Translations under genes and position numbers: made by a program
NCBI GenBank assembly: GCA_947474495.1
Contig: CANJIM010000013.1
Location: 1-50,997 of the forward strand
Direction: 5' to 3'
Length of the DNA: 50,997 nt
Source: Rhodospirillaceae bacterium
GTDB taxonomy: Bacteria; Pseudomonadota; Alphaproteobacteria; SMXQ01
In this document: positions 20,955 through 48,472 of the stretch, piece by piece
Layout: each line of letters begins with the position of its first letter
Position numbering within the stretch: position 1 is the first letter of the stretch
The notes under the pieces: generated by a model
Told to the model about the DNA's origin: nothing
Databases searched by the model: none
The model's input: only the letters and a program-made list of their open reading frames with translations

Positions 20955-22436
20955 ATGGCCGACACCGCCGTTACCCTGCCTGTAGAAAACTCCGCGATTG
21001 AGCCCGCCGCCAAGCGCTCGATCATTTTCGGCGTGCTCTTGGCGATGTTCTTGGCCTCGCTCGAACAGACCATTATCGCCACCGCCCTGCCGACCATCGG
21101 GCGCGAATTGGGCAATGTCGAGGCGCTCGCCTGGGTCGTCACAGCCTATCTCCTCAGCTCGACAGCGGTGACGCCGCTCTATGGCAAGCTGAGCGATATC
21201 TACGGCCGTCGCGTGATGATGCTGACGGCGGTCGGCATCTTCATCGCCGGCTCGGTTCTGTGCGCCATCGCGCCCAGCATGTCACTGCTCGCCATCGCCC
21301 GCGCCCTACAGGGCCTCGGCGGCGGCGGGTTGATGGTCCTCGCCATGACGATCATCGCCGATCTCGTACCGCCACGCGAACGGGCGCGCTACCAGGCGCA
21401 TTTTGCCGCCGTGTTCATGAGCTCCAGCCTGGTCGGCCCGGTGCTCGGGGGCTTTATCGCCGAACATCTGCATTGGTCGGTGATCTTCTGGATCAATCTG
21501 CCGGTCGGCGGCTACATCTGGTGGTCGCTGAGCGGTCGCTTGCGCCAGTTGCCGCGCCACGAACAGCCGCACAAGCTCGACATCGTCGGTGCTTCCTTGC
21601 TCGTTCTCGCGACGGTCCCGCTGCTGCTGGCGCTGAATTGGGGCGGCAACCGCTATGTCTGGGCCTCATGGCAAGTCATCGGCCTCTTTGGCTTCGCAGC
21701 CGCCATGACGGCGCTGTTCGTGCTGCGCATGTTCATGGCGCGCGAACCCTTCCTGCCGCTCGCCATCGCCTTCCATCCTGTGGTCGGCCCGGCGGCAGCA
21801 GCCGGTTTCTTCAATATGGGCGTGTTCGTCGCGCTGACGATCTACACGCCGATCTACTTCGAGGCCGCCCTGGGCCTCAGCGCCAGCGTCGCCGGCCTCG
21901 CCTTGGTGCCGCTGATGGCCTTCACCGTGGCCGGCGCACAGACAAGCGGCCGGCTGATCGCCCATGTCAAACATTACAAACGCATCGGCGTGATCGGCCT
22001 CGGCGCGGCGGTCGGCGCGCTCGTCCTGCTCGCGCTAGGCTCGCCCAATCTGCCTTTCGCCGCCGCACTGACGCTGTTCGGCATCGCCGGCATCGGCATC
22101 GGGACCGCCTTCCCGCTCGTCACACTGGCCAGCCAGAACGCGGTGACGCCGCAGCAGATGGGCACCACGACGGCGCTGATCAATTTTTTCCGCTCACTTG
22201 GCGGCGCCATCATCGTCGCGATCTTCGGCGCCATCGTCATCAACGGCTTGAACGAAGGCGCCAAAGCGCCAGGCCGTCATATGGAAGGCATTGGTGGGGG
22301 CTTCACAGACATTCCGCAAGATACCTTCCGTTGGCTCTTCTTCGCCGCCGCGGTAGCGGTGTTCATCGGCTGGATTCTCGTCCTGCTCATGGAAGAGCGG
22401 CCGATCAAGGATGGCAGAGCCAAATCCTCATCCTAA
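20955..22436 (+). CDS. MFS multidrug exporter, DHA2 family (EmrB/QacA type)
   Basis: A 493-residue inner-membrane proton antiporter of the 14-helix DHA2 group. Helix 1 carries LEQTIIATALPTIGRELG, the DHA2 motif with its conserved acidic residue region; GKLSDIYGRR is the MFS signature loop, followed by the antiporter-like GGGLMVLAM segment. The frame is open from a TTG at 20937, but ATG 20955 (MADTAVTLP) is the better start. No adjacent EmrA-type fusion protein or TetR gene is present, so substrate and control are unknown. Confidence 0.9.
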   Translation: MADTAVTLPVENSAIEPAAKRSIIFGVLLAMFLASLEQTIIATALPTIGRELGNVEALAWVVTAYLLSSTAVTPLYGKLSDIYGRRVMMLTAVGIFIAGSVLCAIAPSMSLLAIARALQGLGGGGLMVLAMTIIADLVPPRERARYQAHFAAVFMSSSLVGPVLGGFIAEHLHWSVIFWINLPVGGYIWWSLSGRLRQLPRHEQPHKLDIVGASLLVLATVPLLLALNWGGNRYVWASWQVIGLFGFAAAMTALFVLRMFMAREPFLPLAIAFHPVVGPAAAAGFFNMGVFVALTIYTPIYFEAALGLSASVAGLALVPLMAFTVAGAQTSGRLIAHVKHYKRIGVIGLGAAVGALVLLALGSPNLPFAAALTLFGIAGIGIGTAFPLVTLASQNAVTPQQMGTTTALINFFRSLGGAIIVAIFGAIVINGLNEGAKAPGRHMEGIGGGFTDIPQDTFRWLFFAAAVAVFIGWILVLLMEERPIKDGRAKSSS

Positions 22437-22503
22437 AGTTCCCGGAACCTCGGCGACTGGATAAGCGTTGACCAATTGAACGCAACAACCAGGAGCGCGA
22501 AAA

Positions 22504-22692
22504 ATGCGCCTTATCCTCGCCGCCATCGTCGCTATCGCTGCCCCGTTGACCCTCGCCGCCTGCGGCGGCAATCCGGAGCGTCGAGAGACCGTCATCGTCC
22601 AGCAGCCTGCCCAAGCCGTCGTCGTGCCGCAGGGCCAAACCGTTGTCGTGCCGCAGGGCAACACCGTCCGCACCTGCACCGCCGGCAGCTAA
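22504..22692 (+). CDS. tiny lipoprotein with VVVPQG repeats
   Basis: A 62-residue lipoprotein. The signal peptide ends in a lipobox TLAAC with cysteine 20 as the lipidation site. The mature 43 residues contain two tandem VVVPQG-x-TV repeats and a C-terminal CTAGS. An AGGAGCG ribosome site precedes the ATG by 6 bases. Similar short lipoproteins are scattered through Alphaproteobacteria without a known role. The next 304 bases carry no gene and include a strong terminator. Confidence 0.8.
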   Translation: MRLILAAIVAIAAPLTLAACGGNPERRETVIVQQPAQAVVVPQGQTVVVPQGNTVRTCTAGS

Positions 22693-22740
22693 AACTGCCC
22701 GTAAGCGGAACCTGAGCTCGAGGTAAAGTCGCGCGTTGAG

Positions 22741-22954
22741 TCTTTAGCCGGCACTCCTCCATCACCTGATGGGGCCCATTCCCCGATGGAAGCCGGCTCA
22801 CAAGAAGAAGATCGACTATCCGCATCCGCCGCCGCCATCCCCTCTGGTGCCCGGCGATGCCCCCCGGCCTTCCCCGGCCGTCGGATAGTCGATCTTCTTT
22901 CTCGTCTCTCCCCACCTGGCAAGGCCCGGACCCATACCGCGCCTTGCCTTTTTT
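22741..22954 (+). ncRNA. candidate structured RNA (sRNA or gpt leader) ending in a terminator
   Basis: Between the tiny lipoprotein and gpt the plus strand folds as follows. First, a hairpin with 7-bp (22746-22752/22792-22798) and 6-bp (22758-22763/22785-22790) helices separated by an asymmetric loop. Second, a three-way junction: an 18-bp perfect closing stem 22805-22822/22882-22899 enclosing hairpins at about 22823-22860 and 22865-22880. Third, an intrinsic terminator at 22918-22954. No coding frame explains the pairing. It may be a free small RNA or a riboswitch-like leader controlling read-through into gpt. Alphaproteobacteria do have a xanthine-binding riboswitch class (NMT1), but I cannot confirm a match by eye. 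Confidence 0.45.
22918..22954 (+). terminator. intrinsic terminator just upstream of gpt
   Basis: An 8-bp perfect stem GGCAAGGC (22918-22925) / GCCTTGCC (22941-22948) with a 15-base loop, followed immediately by six T. It ends 42 bases before the gpt ATG, so either gpt has its own promoter in the short gap or transcription through this terminator is regulated. A further 6-bp hairpin (TGCGCC/GGCGCA, 22954-22968) lies between it and the gpt ribosome site. Confidence 0.8.
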
Positions 22955-22996
22955 GCGCCAATGGCGCATTGGGAATGGGTAGCCAGGGGGAACGCC

Positions 22997-23488
22997 ATGC
23001 CGTCCGACACCTCGATCAATGCCGGCCTCATCGTCAGTTGGGACGACGTCCACCGCGACGCCCGCGCCCTGGTGCGCAAGCTGATGTCGCTCGGCCCCTG
23101 GGAAGGGATCATCGCGCTGACGCGCGGCGGCCTGGTGCCGGCGGCCATCGTCGCGCGCGAGATGGAAATCCGCGTCATCGATACGCTCTGCATCGCCACC
23201 TACGACGAGCAGAAGCTCGAAAAGGTCAAAATCCTTAAAAGCCCGGAAGCCGCCGTGGCGAGCCAGGGCGACGGCTGGCTGCTGATCGACGATCTGGTCG
23301 ATACCGGCACCACACTGCAGGCCGCACGCAAGCTGCTGCCCAAGGCGCATTTCGCCACGGTCTACGGCAAACCCAAGGGCCTGCCGCTGGTGGATACCTT
23401 CATCCACCAGGTGCCGCAGGACCAATGGGTTTATTTCCCCTGGGATCTCAGCCCGAGCTACGCGCCGCCGTTAGCTCGTAAAAGCTAG
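22997..23488 (+). CDS. gpt: xanthine(-guanine) phosphoribosyltransferase
   Basis: A 163-residue purine-salvage enzyme that joins xanthine or guanine to PRPP to give XMP or GMP. The PRPP motif LLIDDLVDTGTT is at residues 95-106, and ALTRGGLVPAA near 40-50 is the pyrophosphate loop. Length and the closing WVYFPWDLSPSYAPP match proteobacterial Gpt. The start at 22997 follows AGGGGG by 5 bases; the frame open to 22961 is leader. It converges with the NCS2 purine permease across a hairpin, forming an uptake-and-salvage pair. The structured leader upstream suggests RNA-level control. Confidence 0.9.
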   Translation: MPSDTSINAGLIVSWDDVHRDARALVRKLMSLGPWEGIIALTRGGLVPAAIVAREMEIRVIDTLCIATYDEQKLEKVKILKSPEAAVASQGDGWLLIDDLVDTGTTLQAARKLLPKAHFATVYGKPKGLPLVDTFIHQVPQDQWVYFPWDLSPSYAPPLARKS

Positions 23489-23505
23489 GCCTGTAAAAGC
23501 GAAGC

Positions 23506-23531
23506 GCCCGCGAAGGTTTCCCCTCGCGGGC
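23506..23531. terminator. hairpin between convergent gpt and NCS2 permease genes
   Basis: An 8-bp perfect stem GCCCGCGA (23506-23513) / TCGCGGGC (23524-23531) with a 10-base loop in the 51-base gap between two convergent stop codons. The T-runs on either side are short, so it is a likely but not textbook bidirectional terminator. Confidence 0.55.
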
Positions 23532-23539
23532 AAGGCGCC

Positions 23540-24832
23540 TTAGCCGAACACGAAGTGCAGCACGCTGAGACCAGCGATGATCAGCACGCCGATCGTCGTC
23601 TGCTCGAACTGCCGGGTCGCCAATTTCGCCAGCGCGTAGACGATGAAGGCGATCGCGATGCCATGGGCGATGCTGTAAGTCAGCGGCATCATGATGGCGC
23701 CGAGCACCGCTGGCGCGTACTCGGTCGGGTCCTCCCAATCGAGATCCAGCAGATTGCGCATGAAGTGGCAGGCAACGAACACCAGCGCCGGCGCGGTGGC
23801 GAAGGCCGGGATGCTTTCGGCCAGCGGCGCAAAGCCGAGGCAGAGCAGGAACAGCACCGCCACGGTGACGGCGGTCAAGCCGGTGCGGCCGCCTTCCTTG
23901 ATGCCGGCGCCGCTCTCGATATAGGACGTCGTGTTCGACGTGCCGAGCAGCGCGCCGATGGTGGTGGCCGACGAATCGGCGATGACCGCCTTGCCGATGC
24001 CCTCGACCTTGCCGTCCGGCCCGACCTTATTCGAGATGTTGGCGACGCTGGTCAACGTACCCGCCGTGTCGAAGAAATCGACGAACAGCAGCGCCATCAC
24101 CACCGAGATCAGGCCGGCGCTGAAGACGCCGCCGATGTCGAGCTGCAGGAAGGTGGGCGCGATGCTCGGCACCGGGCCGACGACGCCGGCGAAGGGCGCG
24201 GCTTTTAGCAACCAGCCGAGGATCGAGACGCCGAGGATGCCGATGACAATGGCGCCCGGCACGCGCAGCTTATCGAGCACGATCATGGCGATGAAACCGA
24301 ACGTGGCGAGCAGCACCGCCGGCGTGATCGGCCCGAGGCCGACGAGGGTCGCCGGATGGTCAACCACGACGCCGGCGCCACGCAGACCGATGATCGCCAA
24401 AAACAAGCCGATGCCGGCGCCGATGCCGAGCTTGAGCGCCTTGGGGATCGCGTTGATGATCCACTCGCGCAGGCCGGTGAGGCTGAGCACCATGGCGAGC
24501 ACACCGGACAGGAAGACGGCGCCGAGCGCGACCTGCCAGGGCTGCTTCATGCCGATGACGATGGCATAGGTGAAATAGGCGTTGAGCCCCATGCCCGGCG
24601 CGAGCGCCACCGGCCATTTTGCCCAGGCGCCCATGATGAAGGTGGCGATGGCGGCGGCCAGGATGGTGGCGACGAATACCGCGCCGAAATCCATGCCCGC
24701 ATCCTTCAAGATGAGCGGGTTGACGGCGATGATGTAGGCCATGGTCAGGAATGTCGCGAGACCCGCGAGCAATTCCGCGCGCACGGACGAGCCGCGCTCA
24801 GTGATGCCGAAATACTTATCGAGCCATGTCAT
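23540..24832 (-). CDS. NCS2/AzgA-family purine (guanine/hypoxanthine/adenine) permease
   Basis: A 430-residue inner-membrane transporter with about 12-14 hydrophobic segments. The start MTWLDKYFGITERGSSVRAELLAGLATFLTMAYI and the motifs ALAPGMGLNAYF and GALLGTSNTTSYIESGAGI are those of the AzgA-like purine permeases (PbuG, PurP, GhxP). It would import guanine, hypoxanthine or adenine, giving substrate to the convergent Gpt. It lies 127 bases downstream of the secreted hydrolase gene, beyond that gene's terminator, so it has its own promoter. Confidence 0.9.
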   Translation of the reverse strand: MTWLDKYFGITERGSSVRAELLAGLATFLTMAYIIAVNPLILKDAGMDFGAVFVATILAAAIATFIMGAWAKWPVALAPGMGLNAYFTYAIVIGMKQPWQVALGAVFLSGVLAMVLSLTGLREWIINAIPKALKLGIGAGIGLFLAIIGLRGAGVVVDHPATLVGLGPITPAVLLATFGFIAMIVLDKLRVPGAIVIGILGVSILGWLLKAAPFAGVVGPVPSIAPTFLQLDIGGVFSAGLISVVMALLFVDFFDTAGTLTSVANISNKVGPDGKVEGIGKAVIADSSATTIGALLGTSNTTSYIESGAGIKEGGRTGLTAVTVAVLFLLCLGFAPLAESIPAFATAPALVFVACHFMRNLLDLDWEDPTEYAPAVLGAIMMPLTYSIAHGIAIAFIVYALAKLATRQFEQTTIGVLIIAGLSVLHFVFG

Positions 24833-35281: not shown

Positions 35282-35313
35282 AAAAGGGCGGCGCCTTGCA
35301 GCGCCGCCCTTTT
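35282..35313 (-). terminator. intrinsic terminator after tctC
   Basis: A 13-bp perfect stem (35282-35294 / 35301-35313, core GGGCGGCGC/GCGCCGCCC) with a 6-base loop, flanked by A-runs on the left and T-runs on the right. On the minus strand it follows the tctC stop at 35331 by 18 bases and is trailed by TTTTTATTT. It can act in both directions. Confidence 0.85.
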
Positions 35314-47770: not shown

Positions 47771-47796
47771 GCTTCAGATACACGGCTCAAGAAAAA

Positions 47797-47826
47797 CCCC
47801 GCGGGATCGCTCCCGCGGGGTTTTTG
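47797..47826 (+). terminator. intrinsic terminator of icd
   Basis: A perfect 10-bp stem CCCCGCGGGA (47797-47806) / TCCCGCGGGG (47811-47820) with a TCGC loop, preceded by AAAAA and followed by TTTTTG. It resembles the hairpin at 48427-48472: the core differs at four positions, of which two make a compensated stem pair. Confidence 0.92.
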
Positions 47827-48426: not shown

Positions 48427-48472
48427 CGCCAAACAAACCCCGCAGGAGCGATCCTGCGGGGTTTGTTTGGCG
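48427..48472 (-). terminator. 21-bp perfect hairpin downstream of alaS
   Basis: The arms 48427-48447 and 48452-48472 are exact inverted repeats of 21 bases around a GCGA/TCGC tetraloop. On the minus strand the descending arm contains GGGGTTTGTTTGG. It lies about 125 bases after the alaS stop and about 107 bases before the broken lipoprotein start, so it may end the alaS transcript. Confidence 0.65.

Follow-up and report, generated by a model that had tools for sequence, protein, structure and literature searches.

On structure prediction and the comparison of two genomes, the 304-base intergenic region between the stop codon of a small lipoprotein gene and gpt holds a structured RNA that is real, conserved and restricted to the genus, and whose terminator looks functional. 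The favoured reading, held with moderate confidence, is that this RNA forms the 3' untranslated tail and the terminator of the lipoprotein transcription unit, and that it is possibly a source of small RNA. The lipoprotein stop (22692) is followed by the RNA and then by the terminator (22918-22954), in the same order in the window (the whole stretch of DNA that was analysed, 50,997 nucleotides) and in a congener (genome G001), and the gene and the RNA would be transcribed together. A scan for sigma-70 promoters from the lipoprotein stop to gpt gave no match that reached 8 of 12, in the window's genome or in the congener. The simplest reading is a single unit of lipoprotein gene and structured tail.

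Locus layout and structure of the element

All features from the promoter motif to gpt lie on the forward strand. An EcfG (general stress sigma)-type promoter motif, GGAAC-N17-CGTT, is located at 22444-22469, upstream of the lipoprotein ORF (22504-22692), which encodes 62 amino acids, including a signal with a LAAC lipobox. The lipoprotein had no match in Pfam and NCBIfam searches and is 85% identical between the window's genome and the congener, and no convincing homologue was found elsewhere in the family searched. The gpt gene (22997-23488) encodes a xanthine phosphoribosyltransferase (NCBIfam NF006613 equivalog, E 1.4e-66; Pribosyltran) and is preceded by a Shine-Dalgarno region, AGGGGGAA (22985-22992), that is identical in the congener. 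The congener does not retain an alternative start codon at 22961, farther upstream, and 22997 is therefore the likelier start. A purine permease gene (Xan_ur_permease, 23540-24832) is convergent to gpt and forms a purine-salvage pair with it. No match to gpt was found in the nine other family genomes searched, so that within the family the gene is confined to the two congeners, which suggests loss in the other genomes or gain in this genus.

The RNA opens with a first hairpin (22746-22798), the outer helix of which is formed by AGCCGGC/GCCGGCT (22746-22752/22792-22798) and which contains two inner helices, CCATT-CCCC-GATGG and one further helix. It is followed by an 18-bp exact stem (22805-22899, arms at 22805-22822/22882-22899) enclosing two smaller hairpins with the loops AUCCCC and UUCCCC. 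The intrinsic terminator (22918-22954) has an 8-bp stem with the arms GGCAAGGC/GCCTTGCC (22918-22925/22941-22948), a loop of 15 bases with a 3-bp inner helix inside it, and a run of six T (22949-22954). A small hairpin, GCGCC-AAT-GGCGC (22955-22967), lies 3' of the T run, the end of which is 42 bases from the gpt ATG at 22997. The two-helix hairpin, the perfect stem, the 8-bp terminator with its T run and the small hairpin that precedes gpt had all been described in the original prediction, and each was recovered in place. The terminator was not listed by a simple terminator scan, which is consistent with that scan's 8-base loop limit. The predicted three-way junction was upheld in part: the two inner hairpins that form it are present in the minimum-energy fold of each genome taken by itself, and the junction is not drawn in the two-sequence consensus fold.

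The earlier view that an 18-bp inverted repeat far exceeds chance was borne out for the intergenic region, where the longest exact inverted repeat reached a maximum of 13 bp in 2000 dinucleotide shuffles of the 304 bases. Shuffles of the whole window (n = 40) gave a longest inverted repeat of 16 bp. The fold z-score, relative to shuffled sequence, is -5.3 for this copy and -4.2 for that of the congener. Only one inverted repeat of the real window exceeds 18 bp: at 48427-48472 (CGCCAAACAAACCCCGCAGGA...) an exact hairpin of 21 bp closes a loop of 4 bases. No other close inverted repeat in the window is as long, and no T run directly follows it; its presence means that a long hairpin is not peculiar to the intergenic region. 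Two shorter exact inverted repeats, terminator-like and with A-rich left ends, were also observed, one of 15 bp at 47792-47825 and one of 13 bp at 35282-35313.

Two coding explanations of the long stem were set aside. The 5' arm, AAGAAGATCGACTATCCG (22805-22822), equals a KKIDYP-coding stretch found in about 100 genomes, in what looks, from the motif, like the ETF-quinone oxidoreductase gene. The window's own homologue of that gene reads CKPIAYP with different codons, and neither genome has a close second site, so the likeness was regarded as a coincidence. A possible short peptide, from a 37-amino-acid frame (MGPIPRWKPAHKKKIDYPHPPPP...) through the 5' arm, was rejected on inspection of the congener, which keeps neither the start nor the stop.

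Conservation and distribution

Gene order is identical in the congener. There the first hairpin keeps its outer helix and the CCATTCCCCGATGG unit despite a 20-base deletion between them, and lacks the one further inner helix. The long stem retains 17 of its 18 pairs and an unchanged span of 95 bases; the altered pair, C22816-G22888, has become U.U, a loss and not a compensation. The terminator pair G22924-C22942 has become A-U, a compensatory change, with stem length and T run unchanged, and GCGC/GCGC of the small hairpin after the T run is kept. The original prediction had staked itself on conservation of the paired arms in relatives, and the arms (22803-22824 and 22880-22902) proved identical to those of the congener at 42 of 45 bases. 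For comparison, the neighbouring spacer (22693-22745) is 60% identical and the segment enclosed by the arms 74%, and identity at four-fold sites ranges from 66 to 82% over five genes nearby. The probability of the arm identity is about 0.0016 at a neutral identity of 0.75 and about 0.013 at 0.80. Arm identity thus lies above the neutral expectation and provides moderate evidence, from two sequences only, of purifying selection on the stem arms. With the element carried by two genomes only, the scope for covariation is very small.

The window's genome and the congener each carry one copy of the element, and the congener was also the only one of 60 relatives (1/60) with a strong match. A covariance model (R1) derived from both copies found only these two genomes among 385 sampled genomes of the class. 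Weak model matches in other genera of the family (best 24.8 bits) were discarded: the element's own reverse complement scores 25-26 bits, and the best weak match in the family sits inside a long open frame. The proposed cmscan check for a known family returned no Rfam match to 22000-23700 (E<=1), nor did the whole window match at the gathering threshold. Because the rest of the family has neither a gpt match nor a clear lipoprotein homologue, co-occurrence cannot assign the RNA to one gene or the other.

Transcription and competing readings

The EcfG/SigT promoter rule is GGAAC, 15-17 bases and CGTT (PMC5869019). The motif before the lipoprotein gene (22444-22469) has equal spacing in the congener, and its spacer letters differ. 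In the congener nepR-like and ecfG-type sigma genes are close together, and the window's genome has two ecfG-type paralogues; these general stress response genes are on contigs other than the element's, in draft assemblies. The NepR-like ORF of the congener (C168, L230), beside an EcfG-type sigma gene, scores 24.7 bits, just below the Pfam cut-off. The EcfG pattern showed no genome-wide enrichment over a reversed control, and the single site is for this reason only suggestive of a stress promoter of the lipoprotein gene. The 42 bases that separate the terminator from gpt show no promoter consensus, and gpt may therefore rely in part on read-through; its transcription may come either from a promoter unrecognised by the scans or from read-through.

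In the mechanism that we infer for the tail of the lipoprotein transcript, which takes in transcript boundaries, stress control, trans activity and read-through, RNA polymerase would start at the probable EcfG-type stress promoter, transcribe the lipoprotein gene, continue for about 210 bases, over which the RNA is strongly folded, and end at the terminator (22954). The long stem and hairpins would shield the 3' end of the transcript, and the processed tail may persist as a small RNA, the C-rich loops of which (UUCCCC/AUCCCC) could pair with G-rich ribosome-binding sites. The downstream gpt gene would be fed by read-through from the lipoprotein unit, by a weak promoter of its own, or by both. 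The CCCC of three hairpins (AUUCCCCGAU, CAUCCCC and UUCCCCGG) is kept and predicted to be unpaired in both genomes, which suggests a possible role as a small RNA, comparable to that of GsrN in Caulobacter; this pattern carries limited weight because the region is C-rich and the pattern was recognised only afterwards. As for the free small RNA originally proposed, the evidence supports a structured RNA that ends in a terminator, an sRNA that is either free or derived from the 3' UTR fits it best, and such a function would be plausible.

A tentative alternative is an independent sRNA that acts in trans and has a promoter of its own shortly before 22746. It would agree with the poor conservation of the stretch from the lipoprotein stop to 22745 beside a well-conserved RNA and with the retention of the C-rich loops in both genomes. 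The nearest EcfG-like pair directly upstream of the RNA, GGAAC (22707-22711) and CGTT (22734-22737), would give a start near 22745, but its spacing of 22 is outside the 15-17 of this promoter class (PMC5869019), and neither genome offers a sigma-70 match instead. Equally tentative is a cis-acting leader of gpt, with the terminator as an attenuator and read-through or gpt translation set by an alternative fold. With no promoter consensus in the 42 bases that lead up to the gpt ATG, read-through may be needed, and the full-length fold in the window pairs the Shine-Dalgarno region with the terminator base (CCUGGC/GCCAGG) at about 1 kcal/mol from the terminator-forming fold. In the congener, however, the terminator fold is the clear minimum, and keeping the terminator 3' arm unpaired makes the best fold about 13 kcal/mol worse. 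The search for an antiterminator yielded nothing conserved in both genomes, including any pairing with the terminator arm. Other gpt genes of the class are without such leaders: the upstream regions compared (n = 28), as the original prediction had proposed, are ordinary spacers, some with the terminator hairpin of the preceding gene, and none is comparable. A dual role seems unlikely: on a stop at 22954 the RNA would be the stress-controlled tail of the lipoprotein mRNA and a C-loop sRNA, and on read-through a gpt leader tied to the general stress response, all in a genus-specific RNA.

The riboswitch and mobile-palindrome readings of the original prediction are both very improbable. A xanthine/guanine riboswitch, of a known or a new class, would suit the location upstream of gpt, with the convergent permease gene following, but this claim drew no support from the Rfam searches at either threshold, and against it stand the absence of the element from the other gpt leaders examined and from every other genome of the 385 and the lack of a conserved antiterminator; the NMT1 xanthine class, moreover, consists of two-stem junctions that almost never have terminators (PMC7373994). 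The near-perfect inverted arms could also belong to a mobile or repetitive palindrome (MITE/REP-like) or to a site acting at the DNA level. Against this, there is one copy per genome, at the same position in both species, with no target-site duplication and with an RNA-type terminator adjoining; the single copy and the conservation in place refute the mobile palindrome.

Relation to known systems and significance

UTR-derived sRNAs are documented in Alphaproteobacteria, for example CcsR1-4 of Rhodobacter sphaeroides (PMC8625941). The element is like these in being a structured RNA in an untranslated stretch, here from a stop codon to an intrinsic terminator; it differs in that no sequence relation was found and in its occurrence in one genus among the genomes searched. 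GsrN of Caulobacter is an EcfG/SigT-dependent sRNA whose active part is an exposed C-rich loop pairing with G-rich mRNA leaders, and EcfG-linked sRNAs are reported to be prevalent across the class (PMC5869019). An EcfG-type promoter motif upstream, a predicted exposed C-rich loop and an intrinsic terminator are shared with GsrN, whereas the motif here precedes a protein gene and not the RNA, and the helices are more numerous and longer. The element resembles such sRNAs and may function as they do, but it lacks the EcfG promoter directly upstream that would mark it as GsrN-like. It shares with the NMT1 xanthine riboswitch (PMC7373994) a location upstream of a xanthine-metabolism gene and an apparently alphaproteobacterial host, and is unlike it in having no covariance-model match, another architecture and a terminator at its end.

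The element would be ordinary if it were no more than a terminator region and a stem that protects it. Should it be expressed, it would represent a structured RNA that is specific to the lineage and new to description, and would add to the evidence that the 3' ends of stress genes are reservoirs of sRNAs in Alphaproteobacteria and that read-through can couple purine salvage to stress.
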